Shown: piece after piece, positions 23,151 to 42,169 of the stretch
Layout: the number at the start of each line of letters is the position of its first letter
Numbering within the stretch: position 1 is the stretch's first letter
Assembly: GCA_028288925.1 (NCBI GenBank)
Contig: JAQGHG010000018.1
Location: 1-45,870, forward strand
Direction of reading: 5' to 3'
From: Patescibacteria group bacterium
Lineage (GTDB): Bacteria > Patescibacteriota > Saccharimonadia > UBA4664
DNA length: 45,870 nt
Translations under genes and position numbers: made by a program
The notes under the pieces: generated by a model
The model's database searches: none
The model's input: only the letters and a program-made list of their open reading frames with translations
What the model was told of the DNA's origin: nothing

Positions 23151-23183
23151 ACAACCCAAGTCACAGGTTAATCTCTGTGCATA

Positions 23184-24644
<1,461 letters not shown>

Positions 24645-24772
24645 CTAGGGAGAAACGACTCAGCAATGAGTTCCGAGTGCTAGACACTCGGTCATACCAA
24701 CCGCTATAGTTTGATCTGCTCGCCGCAAGGTGAGAAGTGATCCTATAAGTTGGGTGAGAACTTCTAGGTCGG

Positions 24773-24796
24773 TCATTGCACTGCACGATTAAGATT
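24773..24796 (+). other. 16S precursor processing stem, 3' arm
   Basis: Complement of 22998-23022 with one bulged base. It lies about 130 nt beyond mature 16S and just before the terminator, closing the precursor stem. Confidence 0.85.
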
Positions 24797-24807
24797 TGAA
24801 GCTATAC

Positions 24808-24837
24808 AAAAACCAGTCCTTTTGGGCTGGTTTTTTG
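24808..24837 (+). terminator. 16S transcript terminator
   Basis: The stem CCAGTCC/GGGCTGG (one G-U pair) has a TTTT loop, is preceded by As and followed by six Ts. This is a classic intrinsic terminator directly after the 16S processing stem. It indicates that 16S transcription ends here. Confidence 0.9.
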
Positions 24838-24854
24838 TGTGGGCGGAAGGTAAT

Positions 24855-25625
24855 TTAGGAGGCGAGCTGAAACAGCTTGGTGAACTCGTCGTATGAGTCG
24901 GCGGCTATGTGTGGCGGTACGGCTAGCGATAGCAATTCTTCGCGCGGGTAGCGGGTGGTAATGGCGCAGGCGTACAGGCCGGCGGCTCGGGCGGCCATGA
25001 TGCCTCTTGGGTCGTCCTCGAAGGCGCAGACGGCTGCCCGGTCGCTTTCCGCGAGGCCGAGTGAGGTGAAGGCGAGGTTGAATACCTCCGGGTTGGGTTT
25101 GGGGTGCGTGATGGATTCTTTGGTTTTGATGCGGCTATCGGGGAAGAGGGGTTTGAGGCCGGTTTTATCCAGGAATATATCGACGTCCTGCCGGAGAGCG
25201 GTACTGGCAATGGCTAGCTTATCGTTAAGCCCGTTTTGTGCGAGCAAAGAGACAAAGTCTGTGGCGCCGGGTACTTCTTCGCCTTCGTTTAAAAGCAGGG
25301 TTTTGTGGAAGGAGTTTTTGAGAGTGGTTATTTCTTGCAGTAAAGGGTTTTTGTGGTCAATAACATCACCGGTAGCTAGCTTTGACATGACCAATATGTT
25401 CCATACGGCAGCTTCTAGGGTGTGCACGGGGGCGTTCAAGAAAGCATCGAGATTGGCCTTTGGGGAGAGATCGCATAATATTTGAAGGCCGCGCCGGCGA
25501 CCGACTTCCTGGACGGCGGCTAGGCGTGAGCGCTCGTGGAGACCTTGCTCCGGCGTGTCCGGAATGTTGTTGAGCAAGGTGTCGTCGACATCGAAGATGG
25601 CGCCTTTGACTTTGAAATTGATCAT
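24855..25625 (-). CDS. HAD-superfamily hydrolase (phosphatase/phosphoglucomutase-like)
   Basis: 256 aa. The four HAD motifs are visible: DVDDT with nucleophile Asp12 and Asp14, AIAST (Thr/Ser of motif II), a Lys in the KPNPEVF region (motif III), and FEDDPRGIMAARAAG with the metal-binding acidic pair (motif IV). A helical cap of about 130 residues lies between motifs I and II, so it belongs to subfamily I. It is likely a cytoplasmic phosphatase or phosphomutase of unknown substrate. The ATG overlaps the stop of the upstream membrane-protein gene (ATGA), so the two are coupled. Confidence 0.88.
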   Translation of the reverse strand: MINFKVKGAIFDVDDTLLNNIPDTPEQGLHERSRLAAVQEVGRRRGLQILCDLSPKANLDAFLNAPVHTLEAAVWNILVMSKLATGDVIDHKNPLLQEITTLKNSFHKTLLLNEGEEVPGATDFVSLLAQNGLNDKLAIASTALRQDVDIFLDKTGLKPLFPDSRIKTKESITHPKPNPEVFNLAFTSLGLAESDRAAVCAFEDDPRGIMAARAAGLYACAITTRYPREELLSLAVPPHIAADSYDEFTKLFQLAS

Positions 25626-25891
25626 TTGGCGTAAGGGCCGAATATGCCGCGAAGGGGGCCGAGCAGAAACGTCATGACGTTGTTGCCGAAGCCGGTAGCT
25701 ACGAAGAGGCCAAGCGCCATCACGATTACGCCGAATATTTTGTAGATGCCGTTGGTGGTGCCGGGTCCGGTGATGTTCTCGAGCCAGTCCTGGGGGCCGG
25801 TCATATTGCTGATCTGGTAGCTGAAACGGACGAAAGCGATGCCGGCGGCCGACATGAGGAGGCCGATGATGACATTGGGGAAGTTAATCAT
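25622..25891 (-). CDS. Small two-helix membrane protein
   Basis: 89 aa, family not recognised. It has two hydrophobic helices (about 5-25 and 48-66) joined by a polar Gly/Pro/Asn loop, and a hydrophobic C-terminal stretch ending GPYAK. It overlaps the HAD hydrolase gene by four bases and is its likely operon leader. TGG-TATACT lies 6 nt before the ATG with no Shine-Dalgarno sequence, suggesting leaderless translation. Confidence 0.75.
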   Translation of the reverse strand: MINFPNVIIGLLMSAAGIAFVRFSYQISNMTGPQDWLENITGPGTTNGIYKIFGVIVMALGLFVATGFGNNVMTFLLGPLRGIFGPYAK

Positions 25892-25897
25892 GGTTTT

Positions 25898-25906
25898 AGT
25901 ATACCA
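25898..25906 (-). promoter_or_regulatory. Extended -10 promoter of membrane protein-HAD operon
   Basis: On the minus strand TGG-TATACT lies 6 nt before the ATG at 25891. It implies a leaderless mRNA. Confidence 0.55.
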
Positions 25907-25951
25907 AAACCCCCGGTTCCGGGTGGCGACGGGACGGGGGATTGATGGTTC

Positions 25952-26149
25952 TTAGCTTTTATTACTGCGACGGACCCGGTTGATGGTTTCGACGAGCTCT
26001 TGCTTGTTCATATCGTGACTGCCCGAGATGTCGTATTCGCTGGCGATTTTGCGCAGGTCATCTACCTTGAAGTCGTCCATCTGAATATCTTCGTTGCCGA
26101 GGCGTTCGCGAAAGGTTTCTGAATTGTTCTTCCTCCGTGCCATGGTCAT
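25952..26149 (-). CDS. Small Rho N-terminal/SAP-like domain protein
   Basis: 65 aa from the ATG at 26149, chosen because AAGGAGGGG stands just upstream; longer in-frame starts lack one. A basic N-terminus (MTMARRKNN) precedes a helix-extended-helix domain (about residues 25-62) with the pattern DDLRKIASEYDISG-NKQELVETI. This pattern is seen in Rho N-terminal and SAP-type nucleic acid-binding domains. It is likely a small cytoplasmic nucleic acid-binding protein. It follows the ICMT-like gene on the same strand with its own ribosome binding site. Confidence 0.75.
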   Translation of the reverse strand: MTMARRKNNSETFRERLGNEDIQMDDFKVDDLRKIASEYDISGSHDMNKQELVETINRVRRSNKS

Positions 26150-26250
26150 ACCCCTCCTTATGGTTGTTGCATGGTAATGCATTGCCATGGCGCGCGTCAT
26201 TGGAACGGGTGTGCAAAATTGGCTGGAAAGCGCGGGTGGTTTTGGGAGGT

Positions 26251-26844
26251 CTACCAGACGCGGGGAATAAGCATTTTGGTTTTGCGCATGTATCTTTTGT
26301 AATCATCGCCGAATTCTCGGATGAGAATGGCTTCTTCTTTTTTGGCTTGCTGGTGGGCAATAATGGGTAGGACCGCTAAGAATAGCAGAAAAACGTAGCT
26401 ACCGGCGACGATTTCGGCGCCGATCATGGAGAGAAAGATCCCAGCGTAGATGGGGTGGCGGATGGAGCTGTAGACGCCGGTGGTGGTGAGGGTATGGCGG
26501 GTTTTGATCTGGTACTCGGCTCCGTGGGCCCAATTGGCGCCGAGGGTGCGGCGGGCGGACATGCTGACGGCAAAGCCAATCACTACGAAGGCGAAACCGA
26601 TGGCTTGAATGGCGAGGTTTTGGTGGAAGGGGAGGATTTGGAGGCCGAAAAGCTGGAGGTAGATCAGGGCCCCCGCTAGCGAGGAGGCGGTACGTCTGAG
26701 ATAGGCGCTGGCCGAAAGGCGCTGCAGCCGGGGCTTTTCAGTTTGGGCTCGGCGGGCCGTAATTACCCAATAGACATAGCGGGTGCTGATGAGCAGGATG
26801 GTGAGGAGCCGTAGGAGGTTGTCGGGAGTGTATAAACCGGTCAT
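26251..26844 (-). CDS. Isoprenylcysteine carboxyl methyltransferase-family membrane protein
   Basis: 197 aa with several membrane helices and the family's C-terminal signature: LGANWAHG, GVYSSIRHPIYAG, and the KEEAILIREFGDDYKRYM tail. These residues bind S-adenosylmethionine in ICMT and related bacterial methyltransferases. Bacterial members usually modify lipids or small molecules rather than prenylated proteins, and the substrate here is unknown. The ATG overlaps the stop of the secreted-protein gene upstream by four bases, so the two are cotranslated. Confidence 0.88.
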   Translation of the reverse strand: MTGLYTPDNLLRLLTILLISTRYVYWVITARRAQTEKPRLQRLSASAYLRRTASSLAGALIYLQLFGLQILPFHQNLAIQAIGFAFVVIGFAVSMSARRTLGANWAHGAEYQIKTRHTLTTTGVYSSIRHPIYAGIFLSMIGAEIVAGSYVFLLFLAVLPIIAHQQAKKEEAILIREFGDDYKRYMRKTKMLIPRVW

Positions 26845-27269
26845 AATCCTAAATTTCCGTGAAGTCGGCGGGGGTGAGCAGAGGCTTGAGCCGCGCCCGT
26901 ATCGATGGCGGCAAACGCACTCCTCACGCCGGCTGATGGAATGCTTGCGAGCAGAACACCACCGACGGTCGATATTGAGCCAGAGATCGTACTGCCGACG
27001 CCCGCGCTCTCCAACCCCAGCACCGTTGTGAGCACAATCGCGGTACCGTTGCTCCCGAATCGGACTTCGAGACCGTTGGGGCCGGCGTAGTAGCGGCCAA
27101 AGTTTGGGTCACCGAACATGTACGTTGAGGCACCGTCGGGTTGGATCGGAACTTGGTGATTCACGATCTGGGTGTACGCGTCGGACGTGTCGGCGTGCGC
27201 GGCGATCGGGATCATCGTGAGCGCGGCCAGTATGACCGCCATGATGACGTTGAGACTTCGTTTGCGCAT
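26841..27269 (-). CDS. Small secreted protein, unknown family
   Basis: 142 aa. A clear signal peptide (basic MRKR, hydrophobic core, AHA-D cleavage at about residue 26) leads an extracellular domain. A Tyr/Gly-rich part (about 45-70) is followed by a Gly/Ser/Val-rich hydrophobic region (about 75-130). AGGAGA lies at good spacing before the ATG. It overlaps the ICMT-like gene by four bases and is its likely operon leader. Confidence 0.72.
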   Translation of the reverse strand: MRKRSLNVIMAVILAALTMIPIAAHADTSDAYTQIVNHQVPIQPDGASTYMFGDPNFGRYYAGPNGLEVRFGSNGTAIVLTTVLGLESAGVGSTISGSISTVGGVLLASIPSAGVRSAFAAIDTGAAQASAHPRRLHGNLGL

Positions 27270-27417
27270 TCCATCTCCTGGATGAAGATATCGAAGAGCT
27301 GCCTAGGCGGACCGCCGAGGCTTGCGCATTATGTGCAATTATTGAAATTAAGTCAAGTCGGGCGATTTGCGCATGTGACTATTGCAATAACTGGGAGCGC
27401 TGAAGGTGTAGCGTGGA

Positions 27418-27747
27418 TTACGACGGCTTGCGTCGATTGCTCATAACGGAGTAGGCAAAATAGAGAATCTTCATAAAGGCAAAGACTTGAAGGATGGTGA
27501 GTATATCGAGCTTTCCGGCGTGTCGGCCGAGGGACCATATGCTTGACGAGACGATAAAGACCGCCGTGGTGGAGATTTCCCACTTGAGGCTCCCAAGGAG
27601 TTGCTTACCCAGCCTATCGATAAGCTTCGCATAGCGATATTCCATAAAGGCATAGACGCTGGCGAGGAGCGCTCCGAGATAGAATATAGATACGAGAGAG
27701 CCAGTCTTGGCGGGGGCGGTAAGACTGGCTTCAATAGCAACAACCAA
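27418..27747 (-). CDS. Membrane protein, AT-rich, start uncertain
   Basis: 109 aa as called from a TTG. The reading frame continues upstream with protein-like sequence (KSIREALLWLILWL) to a stop near 27800, without an ATG or ribosome binding site. The true start may be farther up, non-standard, or lost. The product has three or four hydrophobic helices and ends in NRRKPS. Base composition is clearly more AT-rich than the surrounding genes, as with the next gene upstream. Family unknown. Confidence 0.5.
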   Translation of the reverse strand: MVVAIEASLTAPAKTGSLVSIFYLGALLASVYAFMEYRYAKLIDRLGKQLLGSLKWEISTTAVFIVSSSIWSLGRHAGKLDILTILQVFAFMKILYFAYSVMSNRRKPS

Positions 27748-27833
27748 CCATAGGATCAGCCACAGAAGTGCTTCTCGTATGCTCTTTGGTATGTCATGAT
27801 GTCAAAGTATAGTTGTGCATATATCTTGAGTGT

Positions 27834-28367
27834 CTAATGTGGGCGCCGTGGGCGGAGCAGGTAGATAGCTAAGGCTGTTGCCCAAACGAGCAACATCCAA
27901 GACCATTGAGAAGTCTGCTTAGTTACGCTCCAGATAGTCCAATCTATTATAGGCAATAGAATGCAGATCAGAAGCATACCAAGCCCCAGGCCTTCGGCCG
28001 ATAGGCCAAGATCGCGAGGTCGTGGATTACGATATTCTCGGATTATATTGTATATCTCGTAGAAGATATAAAGAAGGTATAGAATGACAAAATTTGATTC
28101 AAGTAGAGCGGTAGTCTTATGTCCGACAGGTGCTCGGGCAATGTCGTTTATCATGGCGAGCAAGATAACGACCCCCCATCGCCAAACGGCTCGATGGGCT
28201 GGAGCGATAATTTTGCGCAGACTGATTATGGTTTTATTCACGCCGAATTCGAATGCTTTTAGAGTTTTAATTGTAGCTATTATGCCCAGGTTGAAGCTCA
28301 GAGTAAATAGAGAAAATAAATTGGCATATATGAAGTATTCTTTGACCTTACGCCAGGGTAGCCCCAT
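27834..28367 (-). CDS. Multi-helix membrane protein, AT-rich
   Basis: 177 aa with about four membrane helices (near residues 10-35, 58-75, 88-107 and 125-170) and the basic tail LLRPRRPH. Ile, Lys and AT-ending codons are frequent, unlike most of the window, which suggests separate ancestry. No family was recognised and no good Shine-Dalgarno precedes the ATG. It lies downstream of the minus-strand tRNA pair and upstream of another AT-rich membrane gene. Confidence 0.6.
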   Translation of the reverse strand: MGLPWRKVKEYFIYANLFSLFTLSFNLGIIATIKTLKAFEFGVNKTIISLRKIIAPAHRAVWRWGVVILLAMINDIARAPVGHKTTALLESNFVILYLLYIFYEIYNIIREYRNPRPRDLGLSAEGLGLGMLLICILLPIIDWTIWSVTKQTSQWSWMLLVWATALAIYLLRPRRPH

Positions 28368-28472
28368 TTAAAGACCAGCCACGATGCTGATTGCGCGGTA
28401 GTCGCGCCCGTGAGCTTTGCCGCCTCGGTGGGCAGCATCCATTCGCCCTGGTAAATCTGGAAGGCGACGGAG

Positions 28473-28501
28473 AACCACCCCCAACTCAAGGGGGTGGTTT
28501 T
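28473..28501 (+). terminator. Intrinsic terminator
   Basis: AACCACCCCC pairs perfectly with GGGGGTGGTT around a 7-nt loop, followed by a short T run on the plus strand. No clear plus-strand gene ends here, which adds to the impression of a decayed region. Confidence 0.65.
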
Positions 28502-28671
28502 GTCCATCTGCGGGCGGGCGCAAGCTGACCGGAGACGAGCTCAAAGAGCCCTTCGCCCTCCTGTACGACGTGTATGAGATCTACCTGGAGCACCGAGGGT
28601 CGGGACGGGCCGTCACGATACGACTGAGGCGGGGACACCAAGCCGCGACGGCCGCTGACGGGTCCGCAGAC

Positions 28672-28713
28672 ATGATCAAGGGCACCCTCCCGAAGGAAGA
28701 TGCCCTTGATCAT
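28672..28713 (-). other. 19-bp hairpin with UUCG loop downstream of tRNA-Ala
   Basis: On the minus strand the arms of 19 nt pair fully if two G-U wobbles are allowed, closed by a C(UUCG)G tetraloop. On the plus strand those two positions would be A-C mismatches, so the structure fits a minus-strand RNA. It lies about 60 nt after the tRNA-Ala 3' end. No T-tract follows, so it may be a processing or stabilising element. Confidence 0.6.
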
Positions 28714-28774
28714 GAGACCTTGATCCGACTACTAGGCGGGTCCCATGAAGACCACGGTTCTAATAAGCGGGTCA

Positions 28775-28850
28775 TGGTGGAGCATGCCGGGCTCGAACCG
28801 GCCACCTCCTGCTTGCAAAGCAGGCGCTCTACCAAATGAGCTAATGCCCC
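28775..28850 (-). tRNA. tRNA-Ala (anticodon TGC)
   Basis: 76 nt including an encoded CCA. The cloverleaf is visible: acceptor GGGGCAT pairs with ATGCTCC (one G-U), the anticodon loop reads CTTTGCAAG, and the T-arm is GGTTCGAGCC. Alanine identity comes from TGC. It lies 24 nt after tRNA-Ile on the same strand, opposite to both rRNA genes. Confidence 0.95.
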
Positions 28851-28874
28851 GTAGGGTAACAAATGAGGCACATT

Positions 28875-28951
28875 TGGTGGGCTTGGCAGGACTCGAACCT
28901 GCGACCTCGTCATTATCAGTGACGCGCTCTAACCAGCTGAGCTACAAGCCC
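28875..28951 (-). tRNA. tRNA-Ile (anticodon GAT)
   Basis: 77 nt including encoded CCA. Acceptor GGGCTTG pairs with CAAGCCC, the D-arm is AGCTCAGCTGGTTAGAGC, the anticodon loop is CTGATAA, and the T-arm is GGTTCGAGTCC. It is first of the pair on the minus strand. A possible promoter (TTGCTC, 17 nt, TTAAAT) lies at 29001-29029 on the minus strand. Confidence 0.95.
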
Positions 28952-29075
28952 ATCAGATGGGCCTCATATGAGATATGTGAATTGTTAAATTGACCTTGCT
29001 ATTTAAGCATAAACTGTGAGGTTGAGCAAGCTAATGTGGGACGGCAGGATATGCCTCTACCAATATACGACGGGA

Positions 29076-29140
29076 GGCCCGCATCCGTTGACTCCGTTGT
29101 CATCAGATGCGGGCCGGTACTTGGGCGCCTGACGGCGCTC
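29076..29140 (-). terminator. Two hairpins downstream of the gene at 29165-29617
   Basis: GCGCC-GTCA-GGCGC (about 29124-29139) and GGCCCGCATC/GATGCGGGCC (29076-29085 with 29106-29115, and further TGAC/GTCA pairing inside) follow the stop of the minus-strand gene. They probably end or protect its transcript. Neither has a T-tract. Confidence 0.45.
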
Positions 29141-29164
29141 ACATGATCCACAAAAGGAGTGGGC

Positions 29165-29617
29165 CTATCGAATTTCTAGATAGAGGTTCGATAGTGGGTT
29201 GCGTACCCAGGTGTAGAACTTCACCACGCCGTTCTTGTTGGGGGTCGCTCTGTCTGGCAGGCTAGGCTGGTCATTTCTGACTGTTGTGCCATTAGGCAGC
29301 TGCGATGTGGTGCATCGGCCGAGAATTAGTGCTCCGGCCGTTAGGGCGCTGTTGGAGCCAGCGGAGAGGTCTATCTCCAAGACTAGCTCGGTGAGTTTTC
29401 CGTCAAGGGGCTCGCAAGGACGAGATACGGTGACCTCGAGCATTACCGGACGTTTGCATTTCTCGTCGCCGGCTCGGACAAGAAATGTTCTAGCGGTTTT
29501 CATGAGGCGTCCGGCTGCGTTTTCCCGAACCCCCCAATTGGGCGGCGTGGTGAGGTAGAACCGGGACTGACCTTCGTGAACAGGGCCGGCAACATCGACG
29601 GCGATCGTGGTGGTCAC
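29165..29617 (-). CDS. Hypothetical protein, probably beta-rich
   Basis: 150 aa from GTG 29617, supported by AAAGGATA at proper spacing. No signal peptide or membrane helix is seen. The sequence alternates short strands and turns, with Cys residues at about 54, 68 and 102, and ends LYLEIR. No family recognised. It is a single gene upstream of and on the same strand as the tRNA pair, followed by two hairpins. Confidence 0.65.
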   Translation of the reverse strand: MTTTIAVDVAGPVHEGQSRFYLTTPPNWGVRENAAGRLMKTARTFLVRAGDEKCKRPVMLEVTVSRPCEPLDGKLTELVLEIDLSAGSNSALTAGALILGRCTTSQLPNGTTVRNDQPSLPDRATPNKNGVVKFYTWVRNPLSNLYLEIR

Positions 29618-29914
29618 TATGACTATCCTTTGTGAGGGATACAGGGGGCAATGAGCTCGAATCCGTGGGGAATCTCGGAGTACGCATTTTGATAGCGCGC
29701 CCGACTCTCTCTGCCGATTCGAGTTCTATTCTAGTATGCATCTCATTCGCTTTCTTGGCAATTTTACTATGTGCAGAATCACAGTGTGTTTATGTCGGGC
29801 AAGGTGTAGAACAATGCTCGCTTTTGACATATCCCACAAAAGGGGCGGGAGCTCCAGGCGGACCTGGCGACTCTGGCGGTCGCGAGAGCCGACCTGGCCA
29901 AGTGGAAGACCAAC

Positions 29915-30364
29915 TTGGCCCGTGTCACGATGCTTCGGAAGCGTAGGGACGTGGTTCACTTCAGCCGGCTTCTGCGTGAGGCCGAGGCTGTTGTCACGCT
30001 GCTTGCCAGGAGTTGCCCGAGACTCGAGGCGATGATCCATGTACTTGAATGTATGGATCATGTGCAGTTGTATGAACGCCTCGTAGTCGAAGCTGCGGAT
30101 TCTCTTGGTGGTGAAAGGCTGAGGATCGCGCGCACCGAGGAGGAGTGCCATAACGCAGCCGTAGGGCGTTCAATGCCCGTGATCGGTGATCTCTTTGCCG
30201 CGCCGAATGTCTCAAACTACGTTCGTGGTTGCAAGCTTACCGTCAAAATCTACACTAAGCGTGCGAGGGAGGCGATCGACAGCCTCGTTGATGATGGGAC
30301 TCTTGTTCTGCACCGCGGCCTGGTCTGGTACGTCGCGCATGAAGCTCCGGAGCTGCCCATCTGA
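29915..30364 (+). CDS. Hypothetical protein with possible winged-helix end; start uncertain
   Basis: 149 aa from a TTG at 29915. The open frame begins at 29828 and its upstream codons (ELQADLATLAVARADLAKW) also read like a helical protein, so the gene may start earlier or be 5'-truncated. The body is helical and charged. The C-terminal third (about 95-140) has a helix-turn-helix-then-strand pattern (TKRAREAIDSLVDDGTLVLHR) like winged-helix domains. No family recognised. A strong terminator follows at 30389. Confidence 0.55.
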   Translation: MARVTMLRKRRDVVHFSRLLREAEAVVTLLARSCPRLEAMIHVLECMDHVQLYERLVVEAADSLGGERLRIARTEEECHNAAVGRSMPVIGDLFAAPNVSNYVRGCKLTVKIYTKRAREAIDSLVDDGTLVLHRGLVWYVAHEAPELPI

Positions 30365-30388
30365 TCGTCCACCCCCCCTGTCCATCTG

Positions 30389-30436
30389 CCCACCTGAGGA
30401 ACGCAAGTTCTCCTCGGGTGGGCCCTGTTTGTTTTA
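30389..30436 (+). terminator. Intrinsic terminator
   Basis: CCCACCTGAGGA (30389-30400) pairs with TCCTCGGGTGGG (30411-30422), one wobble, around a 10-nt loop. A TGTTTGTTTT tract follows. Confidence 0.75.
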
Positions 30437-30503
30437 AGGGTCTCGTGCTTGCTTGTGAGCGGAGTGCGGGGCAAAATTGATTTGATAAGGGAGTCTGGGA
30501 ATT

Positions 30504-31139
30504 ATGCGGATTACGAAGTATGGACACGCGTGTTTGTTGATCGAAGAGGGGAAAGCGAAGTTTTTGATTGACCCTGGTGCTTTTTCGAAGGGATTTGAGG
30601 GGGTGACGGGGTTGAGCGCGGTGATGATTACTCATCAGCACGCGGATCATTTGGTGGCGGAGAACATTAAAGCGCTACTGGCGGCGAATCCGGAGGCGAA
30701 GGTACTGGCCGATGAGGGATCGGTGATGGTGCTGTCGGAGGCCGGCGTGATGGCGCATGCGATGCATGAGGGTGACGAGCAGACGATCGCGGGGGTGAAG
30801 GTGGCGGTATTTGGCAAGGATCACGCCGAGATCCACCCGGATATCCCGGGTATTCCGGATGTGGGCTATATGATCGCCGAGCGGTTTTTCTATCCCGGCG
30901 ATAGCTATATGGTGCCCGGCCGGCCGGTGGAGGTGCTGGCGGCGCCGGCGGGAGCGCCGTGGCTGAAGGTGAGCGAGGCGGTGGATTATGTGCGCGCGGT
31001 GAAGCCCAAGGTGGCGATTCCGGTGCACGACGCGGTGCTGGCTATGCCGGAGATGAATTATGGCTTGATGAAGCGGTTAACTGCCGATGCAGGGATAGAG
31101 GTAAGAGTCGTGGAGAATGGCCAGACGACGGAGGTTTAA
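30504..31139 (+). CDS. MBL-fold metal-dependent hydrolase (UlaG-like)
   Basis: 211 aa. The metallo-beta-lactamase signature THQHADH (about residues 43-49) gives the metal ligands. GHACLLIE near the N-terminus is typical of UlaG-like and YtkL-like members. Later His and Asp ligands are seen in FGKDHAEIH and FYPGDS, and the final His in AIPVHDAV. It is a cytoplasmic hydrolase of unknown substrate, likely a phosphodiester or lactone. AGGGAG lies upstream of the ATG. Confidence 0.9.
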   Translation: MRITKYGHACLLIEEGKAKFLIDPGAFSKGFEGVTGLSAVMITHQHADHLVAENIKALLAANPEAKVLADEGSVMVLSEAGVMAHAMHEGDEQTIAGVKVAVFGKDHAEIHPDIPGIPDVGYMIAERFFYPGDSYMVPGRPVEVLAAPAGAPWLKVSEAVDYVRAVKPKVAIPVHDAVLAMPEMNYGLMKRLTADAGIEVRVVENGQTTEV

Positions 31140-31199
31140 AAGGATGCTTCGGAAGCGCTTCTGGGGTATGCTGAGAGTAGCATAAGAGTTATAGACATC

Positions 31200-31547
31200 A
31201 TGCCCGGTTGGAAGCGTTTGGCGGGATTAGTACTGGTAGGATCGGCTGCGATGGCCGGTCTGGGGTCATTGGGTATGGCGCGGGCCGACGCTCCGGGCTG
31301 TGGAGTACCGGGCAGCGCTTGCAGTGAGGCCGAGGTGGCTACGCACAATACAGTTCGAAATTGTTGGGTGATGTATAGCGGCGCGTATTACGCGGCGGGG
31401 AGCTTCGTGGGGGCCAATGGTGCGGTAGCGGTGTTGAGTAGCGGCTGGTGCGGGCGCGATGTGACGGTTTATGTGGTTGGTCTGACGTCCGCCAAACCGT
31501 TAGTGAAGGACATTTTGGCTTCATATAGAGTGGGGCCGGTACAGTGA
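31200..31547 (+). CDS. Secreted cytochrome-b5-like domain protein lacking heme ligands
   Basis: 115 aa. A signal peptide ends near ARA-DA (about residue 30). The mature domain follows the cytochrome b5 pattern: AEVATHNTVRNCWVMYSG matches the family's EVxxHN-xxDCWVxxxG, then a strand and an F, and GRDVT matches the later GxDAT. The spacing between them equals that of b5, but the heme-binding HPGG reads NGAV, so the axial His is missing. It would be a heme-free relative outside the membrane. It overlaps the next gene by four bases. Confidence 0.7.
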   Translation: MPGWKRLAGLVLVGSAAMAGLGSLGMARADAPGCGVPGSACSEAEVATHNTVRNCWVMYSGAYYAAGSFVGANGAVAVLSSGWCGRDVTVYVVGLTSAKPLVKDILASYRVGPVQ

Positions 31548-32080
31548 GGCGCCCGGGAATCCTGATGGATGTGGTGCTGGCGGTCGTCGTAGTGGTGGCC
31601 GTGGTGGGTGCGCTGGGAGCGCAAAAAGGCGTGCGGCAACAGGTAGGCAAGACGGTGACGGCGGCTTTGCCCTCGCCGGTGCCGCCCCATATGTACAAGA
31701 CGGGCGAGACGGCCACGATGGGCGTGTACGCGCTGACCGTCAAGCAAACGCGGGTGGATGCTCAGGGTACGCGGCCGTATGTGCCGGGCGCGGGCTACCA
31801 GTATTATGTGGCGGATGTGGTGCTCAAGAATACTGGCAAGGAGGCCCTGGAGGCCGCGCCGGCGGTTCAGATGTATCTGCGCGATGCCACGGGTGCGAAT
31901 TACGCTATGGCGCCGGCGCCGCTGGATGTGCCGTTCGCGGCTGGTCAGCTGGTGGCGGGCGAGGAGCGGGCAGGCCAGGTGAGCTTCGCGGCGCCACAAA
32001 CGGCGGTGGGTTTGCGGTTGATATTTGATCCGGCTCCGGCGGCGGGGGCGGTGGCGGTGTTTGAGATGGCCTCGAACTAG
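31544..32080 (+). CDS. Membrane-anchored DUF4352-like protein
   Basis: 178 aa from GTG 31544, overlapping the stop of the gene before it. An N-terminal membrane helix (about 7-26) is followed by a short linker and one extracellular beta domain (about 50-178). Its features are GVYALTVKQTRV, YYVADVVLKNTGKE and an F-DP strand near the end, as in DUF4352/telokin-like domains that support cell-surface proteins. It is cotranslated with the b5-like protein, so the two may work together on the outer face of the membrane. Confidence 0.7.
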   Translation: MRRPGILMDVVLAVVVVVAVVGALGAQKGVRQQVGKTVTAALPSPVPPHMYKTGETATMGVYALTVKQTRVDAQGTRPYVPGAGYQYYVADVVLKNTGKEALEAAPAVQMYLRDATGANYAMAPAPLDVPFAAGQLVAGEERAGQVSFAAPQTAVGLRLIFDPAPAAGAVAVFEMASN

Positions 32081-32145
32081 GCCTCGGGTCCTGGCGGGGG
32101 CACGCGCCACCCCCTTTGAATTGTAGCGATCTCCCCTAAAAAGTA

Positions 32146-32174
32146 TTGACCGCCCAGATGAGACCTGCTAGTGT
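32146..32174 (+). promoter_or_regulatory. Candidate 23S-5S promoter
   Basis: TTGACC, a 17-nt spacer, then TAGTGT. The -35 is near consensus and the -10 weaker. It lies about 300 nt upstream of 23S and after a GC-rich hairpin behind the gene ending at 32080. Confidence 0.6.
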
Positions 32175-32180
32175 ATGAGA

Positions 32181-32470
32181 GTTACTTCGAGGGCTTGCAT
32201 GAGTAGACAGCTAGGTTTGAGCGGAGAATCCGCCTAAACAATCAGTTGTCTCTTACTATGTAGGCTCTGCCGGACACCCGTTCGCGGAGTTTGTTTTTTT
32301 GAAAACTAAGTAAGAATGGGTACGACACACTGTTTTTCTTACCAGTGTGTCGACAAACAATTTCATCGGATCGAATTCACCGCCGAGGTGGATAAGATCG
32401 GATAAACCTAGCAGTTGCAAACTGCTAGTCAAACAGGTTCGGCAAAATTCCTTAAGTTTTGTCGGACCAA
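32181..32470 (+). promoter_or_regulatory. 23S leader with attenuator-like hairpin
   Basis: The leader holds the hairpin GCGGA-GAA-TCCGC (32221-32233) inside longer AGACA/TGTCT and GTTT/AAAC pairing, then a boxA-like TGTCTCTTAC. CTCTGC/GCGGAG (32265-32289) follows with an 11-nt tract of ten Ts and one G (32290-32300), like an intrinsic terminator. Further perfect hairpins are CGACACACTG/CAGTGTGTCG (32323-32352) and CTAGCAGTT/AACTGCTAG (32408-32428). It either controls 23S by attenuation or makes a small separate RNA of about 120 nt. Confidence 0.55.
32306..32318 (+). other. 23S precursor processing stem, 5' arm
   Basis: CTAAGTAAGAATG pairs perfectly with CATTCTTACTTAG at 35821-35833 across 23S. 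It is the expected RNase III stem and encloses 23S alone. Confidence 0.75.
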
Positions 32471-32471
32471 C

Positions 32472-35746
<3,275 letters not shown>

Positions 35747-35820
35747 ACTTTCTCTTCAGTTACGCAATTGATTGAAGTGAGAGTAATGTTTGACTAGCAG
35801 TTTGTGGCCACTAGGCCTCT

Positions 35821-35833
35821 CATTCTTACTTAG
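35821..35833 (+). other. 23S precursor processing stem, 3' arm
   Basis: Exact complement of 32306-32318, between 23S and 5S. It shows that 5S lies outside the 23S stem but in the same transcript. Confidence 0.75.
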
Positions 35834-35914
35834 ATAGTCCACGCACTCGCAATGTTTAAGAGTGCCGAGACCGTTGACTAATGGCTCATCCTTTATGGGG
35901 TGCGTGTGGTCGAC

Positions 35915-36021
35915 GGTCCCGGTGCTTTTAGCGCGGGGGATACACTGGTTCCCATCCCGAACACCAAAGTTAAGACCCGCTGCGGCGATGATACTCCTAT
36001 GGGGGAAAGTAGCACGGTGCC
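35915..36021 (+). rRNA. 5S ribosomal RNA
   Basis: About 107 nt. The conserved loop region CCCATCCCGAACACCAAAGTTAAG is recognisable in form (CCCATxCCGAAC and AAGTTAAG), as are GGCGATGATA and GGGGGAAAGTAG. The ends pair as GGTCCC with GGTGCC (one mismatch). It is linked to 23S and followed directly by a terminator. Confidence 0.93.
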
Positions 36022-36030
36022 GGATTATTC

Positions 36031-40785: not shown

Positions 40786-41271
40786 CTAGGCGGCCTTAGT
40801 GGAGGTATTGGCCAGGCCGGCGGCGAAGCGCGAGACGATGGTGCGTTTGACGCGGCGGTCCTTGCGCCAGTTGACGACCCATTTGGCGCCGCAGGCAAAG
40901 CAGCCATAGGAGTCGCGGCCGCGCTGGAGCGAGAAATTGTTGCAGTCGGGGCAGGTGGCGCGCTTGGTGAGCCAGTCGTCGTAGGAGGCGATGGTGGAGG
41001 CGATGTGCATCTCGTTGATCTTGACGCCAAACTGGGGCGCGAGGTCGCGGGCGATATCCCAGGCCTCCATCTCCATGCGCAGGAGCTCCATGTCGTACTT
41101 ATAAATGCGGTGGTTCATGCGGGCGTGGCCGAGCTCGTGGAGCAGGGCTAGGCGGCCGTTATTGGTCTTGATGCGGCGGGTATCGAAGGTGATGGTGCGC
41201 GTATTGGGCGACCACATAAAGTACCGGCCGGGGACAAATGTTTGGTCTGTAAAGTTTTGCAGGAATTCCAA
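40786..41271 (-). CDS. HEXXH metallopeptidase-like protein with zinc ribbon
   Basis: 161 aa from TTG 41271, chosen because AGGAGG lies exactly 6 nt upstream; the frame stays open farther up but those starts lack sites. LLHELGHARMNH (HEXXH at about 45-49) is the zinc-metallopeptidase motif in an ImmA/IrrE-like context, with an acidic EMEAWDIA helix after it. A C-terminal zinc ribbon (CPDC and CFAC) follows, then a basic tail. It is a cytoplasmic protein, likely a protease acting on a regulator or nucleic acid-bound substrate. It is the first gene of a two-gene operon with the cysteine peptidase-like gene. Confidence 0.72.
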   Translation of the reverse strand: MEFLQNFTDQTFVPGRYFMWSPNTRTITFDTRRIKTNNGRLALLHELGHARMNHRIYKYDMELLRMEMEAWDIARDLAPQFGVKINEMHIASTIASYDDWLTKRATCPDCNNFSLQRGRDSYGCFACGAKWVVNWRKDRRVKRTIVSRFAAGLANTSTKAA

Positions 41272-41387
41272 GCTCACCCTCCTGTTGCTAACGTAATATT
41301 TACTATAGCGGGGTGGAATGGCGGCGTCGAGCATAAGGGGAATGATGAGTTTTGACGCGTTAATTTGTCTGAAAAAGAGGTTGCACA

Positions 41388-41416
41388 TTGACATTTTTGA
41401 TGCGTTGTGTTAGATT
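41388..41416 (+). promoter_or_regulatory. Strong promoter of candidate RNA
   Basis: TTGACA, 17 nt, TAGATT: near consensus, with no ORF starting in the next 250 nt. Confidence 0.85.
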
Positions 41417-41422
41417 AGACAG

Positions 41423-41622
41423 TAGATCGTGAGGGTGACGAGTGATGTTGGGGCTTTACCGAGCCGGATGTGAGTGCTCACCTCCTTGCAATTTGGTGTA
41501 GGCCAAAGCCCCAACAGCGCTCATATCAAGTGAGTGCCAAATACACAATAAAATAGCTCTGTGTTGCTTGGGTCTCGGCCCCTCCAAGGTGTCCATTCCT
41601 CGGCAACACAGAGCTATTTTTT
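41423..41622 (+). ncRNA. Candidate structured RNA with anti-SD mimic
   Basis: About 200 nt from the promoter's expected start to a T-tract. Hairpin 1 pairs TGTTGGGGCTTT (41446-41457) with AAAGCCCCAACA (41505-41516), a perfect 12-bp stem. Its loop contains TCACCTCCTT (41478-41487), the same 10 nt as the 16S 3' end. Hairpin 2 pairs AATAGCTCTGTGTTGC (41552-41567) with GCAACACAGAGCTATT (41603-41618), 16 bp, followed by Ts: an unusually long intrinsic terminator. No protein is plausible. It may be a free small RNA or a leader of the LPXTG-like gene 70 nt beyond. It matches no RNA family that I recognise (not RNase P, tmRNA or SRP RNA). Confidence 0.7.
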
Positions 41623-41692
41623 GTCGCTTATGCTTGCGATGGAGGACGATAATGGCGTACAAATGGTTACAGATACAGAGAAGGAGTGGCAA

Positions 41693-42169
41693 ATGAAGGG
41701 CGATACAGCAAAAACCTTGGTGGGTTTGGTAATTATTGGTCTGATTGTGGTGGCAACTTTTATATACGGGAATGCCCAGCGCCAAGCGCAGCTACGGCAC
41801 GACCAAGATGTTAAGAAACAGCAAGATGCTAAGGTGACGCAGTCCACGAAGAAGTCGCCGTCGGTACAGCCGAGAGTGTCGAGTACGCCGCCGAAGCAGC
41901 AGGCTAATGGCACGGCTACGGCTCCAGTGCAGACGCCGGCCTCGAATACGCTTCAGGGTAACGGGCAAACGCCGGCGCCAACCTCGACTCCCGTAACGGG
42001 TGGTACCGGTGGCCAGGTGGCCGGAGCGCAGACAGCTAACGGCACGGGCTTGCCGGAGACTGGCTCGCCGCTGACGGGGCTGATTGGCGTTACTGCTATC
42101 GTGGCGATGTTGGTGGCGTTGCGGCGTTCGAAGCGGGCGGTGTTTGCGGCGGCGCGCGGACGGCGCTAA
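41693..42169 (+). CDS. LPXTG-like surface protein, low complexity
   Basis: 158 aa from ATG 41693, set by AAGGAG 6 nt upstream. An N-terminal membrane helix (about 7-25) is followed by a Gln/Lys/Ser/Thr/Pro-rich extracellular region without a folded domain. LPETGSP lies at about 120, then a hydrophobic helix (about 130-145) and the basic end RRSKRAVFAAARGRR: a sortase sorting signal architecture. It follows the candidate structured RNA and precedes a copy of the dispersed element. It is likely a small cell-surface stalk protein. No sortase gene lies in the window. Confidence 0.78.
   Translation: MKGDTAKTLVGLVIIGLIVVATFIYGNAQRQAQLRHDQDVKKQQDAKVTQSTKKSPSVQPRVSSTPPKQQANGTATAPVQTPASNTLQGNGQTPAPTSTPVTGGTGGQVAGAQTANGTGLPETGSPLTGLIGVTAIVAMLVALRRSKRAVFAAARGRR

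Follow-up and report, generated by a model that had tools for sequence, protein, structure and literature searches.

A predicted small RNA of one order of Saccharibacteria that probably targets the major type IV pilin at its ribosome-binding site

The window analysed here, a stretch of 45,870 nucleotides from a member of the Saccharibacteria, which are ultra-small and mostly uncultured epibionts, contains the sequence TCACCTCCTT at exactly two sites (0.07 expected), namely the 3' end of the 16S rRNA gene (24634-24643) and the loop of a hairpin located at 41478-41487. A preliminary description of the DNA had taken this loop for a copy of the anti-Shine-Dalgarno (SD) end of 16S rRNA, which the two sites bear out, and had suggested that an RNA carrying it could bind SD sequences as a broad translational regulator or compete for S1 or IF factors. 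The locus raises the question of what such an RNA would act on. Comparison among related genomes indicates that it is in all likelihood an Hfq-independent, trans-acting antisense small RNA (sRNA) that would block the translation of pilin, rather than an anti-SD regulator of broad range; what looks like a 16S mimic can be an antisense regulator of a single gene.

The features of the locus are collected in Table 1. The near-consensus promoter that had been noted ahead of the region is present, TTGACA and TAGATT being 17 nt apart, and it has an extended -10 TG as well. Of the roughly 200 nt that had been described as non-coding with two long perfect stems, both stems proved to be real but not strictly perfect, since the pairing of helix 1 is interrupted by mismatches and its inner stem is broken, and hairpin 2 contains internal loops. 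The predicted fold of 41423-41625 has an energy of -87.8 kcal/mol (z = -6.6), and none of 200 shuffled sequences folded equally well. A simple terminator scan detected nothing at the sRNA because the loop of hairpin 2 is long, and the intrinsic terminator was identified by reading the sequence (a hairpin followed by a T run). The sequence features are therefore those of a free-standing non-coding gene with its own promoter and intrinsic terminator, from which we infer its transcription. The 5' leader could have a role in pairing, through GGGUGA, with UCACCU of the loop. A reading of the leader as the start of a downstream peptide (GAGGGTGATG) was discarded, since not all genomes keep the ATG (G000 and G004 have GACG).

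Table 1 Features of the small RNA locus, with positions in the window
Feature	Position	Strand	Evidence or remark
Sigma-70-type promoter of the small RNA, TTGACA-N17-TAGATT	41388..41416	+	Also kept upstream of homologues
Small RNA, inferred transcript	41423..41625	+	CM R1 match 41423-41626, 210.7 bits; fold z = -6.6
5' leader TGAGGGTGA	41430..41438	+	Invariant within family f1 (alignment)
Hairpin 1, covarying stem pairs	41441..41522	+	Alignment and covariation
Hairpin-1 loop GAGTGCTCACCTCCTT, predicted seed, antisense of pilin RBS	41472..41487	+	First 14 nt invariant, 8 genomes
Hairpin 2, terminator-type stem, then T run	41551..41622	+	Many compensatory changes
Hairpin-2 apex GCCCCTCCAAGGTG, candidate second seed, antisense of CHAP-domain hydrolase RBS	41578..41591	+	Family f1 only

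The class-wide sample comprised 393 genomes, of which 11 belong to the order of the window and 382 do not. Eight of the 11, distributed in four families, are at least 90% complete, and the other three are 71-84% complete. A DNA search rendered homologues in the five members of the window's family (f1) that are at least 90% complete, the window's own genome included, while a covariance model (CM R1) matched in all eight well-assembled genomes of the order (at least 90% complete) and in 0 of the 382 others of the class. In an alignment of the five genomes, the promoter hexamers, the leader, the loop GAGTGCTCACCTCCTTG and the apex of hairpin 2 are invariant or nearly so and the stems have diverged; the loop GAGUGCUCACCUCC is constant across the eight genomes of the order. 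In the stems, 12 base pairs differ on both sides and 94.8% of the cells are paired, a result as high being obtained in 0 of 500 shuffles, and in helix 3, which belongs to hairpin 2, seven pairs have changed on both sides with 100% of the cells paired. Hairpin 1 and its loop are retained in G008 and G010, which are more distant and in which hairpin 2 is either reduced or missing. Both the covariance search in Saccharibacteria and the comparison of the loop, which has stayed fixed while the stems changed instead of drifting freely among relatives, thus speak for the new RNA that had been proposed from the window. None of the 4227 families of Rfam 15, which include 6S, SRP, tmRNA and riboswitches, matched at the gathering threshold, and a relaxed threshold (E up to 5) rendered no relevant match to the sRNA. 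No match was found by blastn in a plasmid collection either, nor did the covariance model match, at E up to 5, any of 28 S1-neighbourhood loci with the same synteny in sister orders. Judged from comparative sequence, largely of metagenome-type assemblies, this is a discrete RNA family, previously undescribed, in one order of Saccharibacteria.

A likely target became apparent from the distribution of the loop sequence. The 14-mer GAGTGCTCACCTCC is absent from 384 of the 393 genomes of the class. It has two sites each in G000, G002, G004, G005, G006, G007 and G010, and one each in G001 (pilin only) and G008 (RNA only), the second site being always the reverse complement, over the SD/start-codon region of a type IV prepilin. 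The central bases of the seed are mostly unpaired in the predicted ensemble and the flanking ones are paired in the stem, so that the sequence and the predicted fold present a seed that is conserved, accessible and complementary to an mRNA of a distant locus in its 5' region. In G000, where the ribosome-binding site (RBS) of the major pilin reads AAGGAGGTGAGCACTC-GTG-TCC, the target protein (145 aa) matches PF07963 and the order of the type IV pilus locus is pilB-pilC-pilA-pilA'-minor pilins-pilM-pilN-pilO. The sRNA of this genome is found on contig C1 and the pilA RBS on contig C25, and from these separate loci it follows that the sRNA would act in trans.

G000 has two major pilin genes in tandem (L127:5588-6578, on C25) that are nearly the same; each is preceded by a leader of its own, and over the first 60 residues the proteins are almost identical. 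The second of them retains GGTGAGCACTC beside its ATG with a degenerate SD, which argues that this sequence has been kept for pairing with the RNA and not for the ribosome. The pilin of G008 carries GGAGGTAAGCACTC, with one mismatch to its own loop, and the pilin RBS of G009 (GGAGGTGAACATTC) shows two changes. In the latter genome, an 84% complete assembly, no sRNA was detectable and a search for the compensatory loop GAATGTTCACC rendered only the pilin itself; an RNA loop GAATGTTCACCTCC would be compensatory to a pilin RBS of this type. Other prepilin-like genes, in loci L063 (G007) and L074 (G008), have RBSs that differ little from the complement of the seed (AAGGAGGTGAGAAC and AAGGAAGTGAGCAT, respectively), and it is possible that they are extra targets.

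The predicted duplexes between the loop and pilA range from -30.6 to -45.7 kcal/mol in the eight genomes. As background, 1337 sequence windows plus 78 windows centred on GGAGG were taken from the host window, and in each of the eight genomes the loop:pilA duplex was better than 1337 of 1337 and 78 of 78 of them. The duplex with the second tandem pilin of G000 (-35.4 kcal/mol) was equalled by 0 of the 1337 background windows, and the anti-SD of 16S rRNA gave -18.3 kcal/mol on the same pilA leader. In the window's genome 16 contiguous nucleotides pair, and in several genomes wobble and flanking pairs reach the start codon. Over the 20 nt flanking the core, likeness to the antisense of the pilin leader also exceeded that of shuffled sequences (0 of 500, summed over genomes), which may reflect extended pairing, or a descent of the sRNA from an inverted copy of the pilin leader. 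The core seed is invariant, with no clean compensatory change between seed and target, and duplexes formed across genomes have about the strength of cognate ones, so that there is no strong signal of coevolution beyond the invariant core.

These computed properties (conservation, covariation, exact complementarity to the RBS of a single orthologous gene, restriction of both to the same order and duplex energies) are consistent with the following mechanism. The sRNA transcribed from 41423-41625 would present 5'-GAGUGCUCACCUCCUU-3' in the loop of hairpin 1, the loop would pair in trans with the SD/start-codon region of the major type IV pilin mRNA, and the duplex would block binding of the 30S subunit, reducing the synthesis of pilin. 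The sRNA would thus probably switch off pilin production for the pili with which the cell clings to its host. A gene for Hfq was found in 0 of the 11 genomes of the order, the controls being positive in E. coli, B. subtilis and others, and an Hfq-dependent sRNA was accordingly discarded; a long stable seed may replace the chaperone. Pairing in the cell, the timing of expression, and repression rather than stabilization are what we infer from the computed properties, and it could also be the case that pairing stabilizes or activates the pilA mRNA, or that the pilA mRNA acts as a sponge of the RNA. Such effects of sRNAs exist, as that of FasX on ska mRNA (PMC4691137), and evidence of pairing alone gives no sign. 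Nevertheless, a duplex that covers the SD and, in several genomes, the start codon ordinarily blocks initiation, which makes translational repression the likeliest outcome and the reverse effect unlikely.

The position of the sRNA might instead suggest a leader or attenuator acting in cis on the downstream gene, that of an LPXTG-type surface protein at 41694 or an S1-domain gene, whose read-through would be controlled by the terminator hairpin. A terminator-like hairpin indeed ends the RNA just upstream of 41694, and an LPXTG-type gene is also found downstream in G008, but in G007 the first gene downstream is a different one (an S1-domain gene), and a role of this kind would leave unexplained why 16 nt are perfectly antisense to a pilin gene located far away. 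We therefore hold this reading to be quite improbable. Pairing with neighbouring genes was likewise rejected, since the RBS of the adjacent divergent ImmA-like gene (GGAGGGTGAGCTTG), though it shares 7 nt, gives a duplex (-25.4 kcal/mol) within the background, and the duplexes with the leaders of the LPXTG-type and S1 genes (-18 kcal/mol) are at background level.

Regarding the broad role that had been proposed at first, in which the loop would mimic the 3' end of 16S rRNA and bind many mRNAs or translation factors, the loop does share 10 nt with that end and is able to pair with any AAGGAGGU. The identity, however, is of exactly 10 nt (GUGAGUGC-UCACCUCCUU-GC in the loop versus GGA-UCACCUCCUU-UC in the 16S), and the invariant loop runs six nucleotides further (GAGUGC), which are unlike the 16S and match the pilin leader. 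Near-matches other than pilin are mostly intragenic or not common to the genomes, and typical GGAGG sites are on average some 13-26 kcal/mol weaker than pilA. The likeness of the loop to 16S rRNA is explained by both pairing with the same perfect SD, and a 16S rRNA fragment or pseudogene was discarded because the identity ends with the 10 nt of the anti-SD and the flanks differ. Thus, pairing with an SD and an action on translation stand as predictions, but not the breadth of that action, the 14-16 nt being complementary to one place per genome, which makes a broad anti-SD regulator very unlikely; competition for S1 or IF factors finds no support, given that the full 14-16 nt loop is complementary to the RBS of the major type IV pilin. 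That the highly conserved 14-mer is a protein-binding motif shared by opposite strands, with no pairing between RNAs, is scarcely credible, since the complementarity continues through wobble and flanking pairs and the motif is located in the loop of a covarying hairpin.

Antisense repression of pilin might be accompanied, in the window's family, by an action on a second mRNA. The apex of hairpin 2 (GCCCCUCCAAGGUG), found only in this family, complements CACCUUGGAGGGG-type RBSs, located just downstream of a conserved TTGACA promoter, of orthologous secreted CHAP-domain peptidoglycan hydrolases. The predicted apex:CHAP duplex was equalled by 0 of 1337 background windows in G000 and G006 and by 1 of 1337 in G004; it is weaker in G005 (13/1337), and in G002 (78/1337) it is not clearly above background. 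A search with the apex pattern showed no excess over a reversed-pattern control in several genomes, so that the argument depends on the sites being orthologous. The CHAP hydrolase RBS is a plausible second target, less secure than pilin, through which both host attachment and wall lysis may come under the control of a single RNA. An order-wide, Hfq-free epibiotic switch with two loops, in which loop 1 would shut off the major pilin or pilins and, in one family, hairpin 2 the CHAP hydrolase, we regard as slightly more doubtful than probable. The start codon of the CHAP hydrolase appears to be near-cognate, AUU in G000, G001, G005 and G006, AUA in G003, AUC in G002 and AUG-ACC-AUU in G004; in the family f1 leaders this apparent start is at normal spacing from a strong SD and yields a regular signal peptide. 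The best-known genes with an AUU start are infC and pcnB.

The closest functional analogue, compared by mechanism from the literature, is FasX of Streptococcus pyogenes, which has two separate pyrimidine-rich pairing regions, the first pairing with the cpa pilus mRNA and lowering ribosome access and the second acting on the mRNA of a secreted factor (PMC4691137). Two pairing regions and a pilus mRNA as target are also what is predicted here, but the FasX target is a sortase-type pilus protein and the predicted target of the sRNA studied here a type IV pilin, the seed here is a 16-nt perfect RBS antisense in a hairpin loop, the host is a Patescibacterium, and no sequence relation between the two RNAs is known. 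Accessible C-rich loops that block initiation at the SD are also found in the pneumococcal csRNAs (CCUCCU), RNAIII (UCCC loops), AbcR1 and LhrC (PMC4691137, PMC6234868). The loop described here is likewise accessible, C-rich and complementary to the SD; whereas those RNAs use short degenerate motifs, often for many mRNAs, its long seed matches, in essence, a single gene in each genome. Long near-perfect complementarity to one mRNA 5' end, with likeness continuing into the flanks, is on the other hand a trait that the sRNA shares with cis-encoded antisense RNAs, from which it differs in that its locus is apart from pilA (C1 and C25 in G000).

In Saccharibacteria, type IV pili serve host binding and twitching, and in TM7x pilin transcripts reached about 1.8% of all transcripts (PMC12206443), which makes pilin output a sensible point of control. 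The sRNA provides, for the regulation of these pili, a concrete predicted RNA, seed and target RBS, a pair that can be tested with a reporter without culturing the organism. In the literature searched no characterised sRNA of Patescibacteria was found, so that, if correct, this would be, as far as that search goes, the first pair of sRNA and target in the group to be backed by evidence of this level. It would also illustrate the way in which a long conserved seed could operate where Hfq is absent and, if the second target holds, attachment to the host would be controlled jointly with wall lysis in the absence of that protein.

Upstream of the sRNA, the divergent ImmA-like protein (40789-41274) has a HELGH motif and zinc-finger-like CxxC pairs, with no Pfam match. 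Its gene is the upstream neighbour of the sRNA in family f1, a ROK-type gene taking this place in G007, G008 and G010. In a genome of a sister order (G021, locus L097), a strong minus-strand promoter and a terminator hairpin lie between ROK and LPXTG-type genes, an element that may encode a short RNA of another kind in the corresponding syntenic position. Elsewhere in the window, the 23S rRNA gene (32474-35746) has 3273 nt as compared to the 2925 positions of the model, which suggests that about 350 nt have been inserted or form an intron. The rRNA genes of the window are in an unlinked arrangement, the 16S and the 23S-5S being about 7.8 kb apart (23182-36025), with tRNA-Ala and tRNA-Ile between them on the opposite strand.
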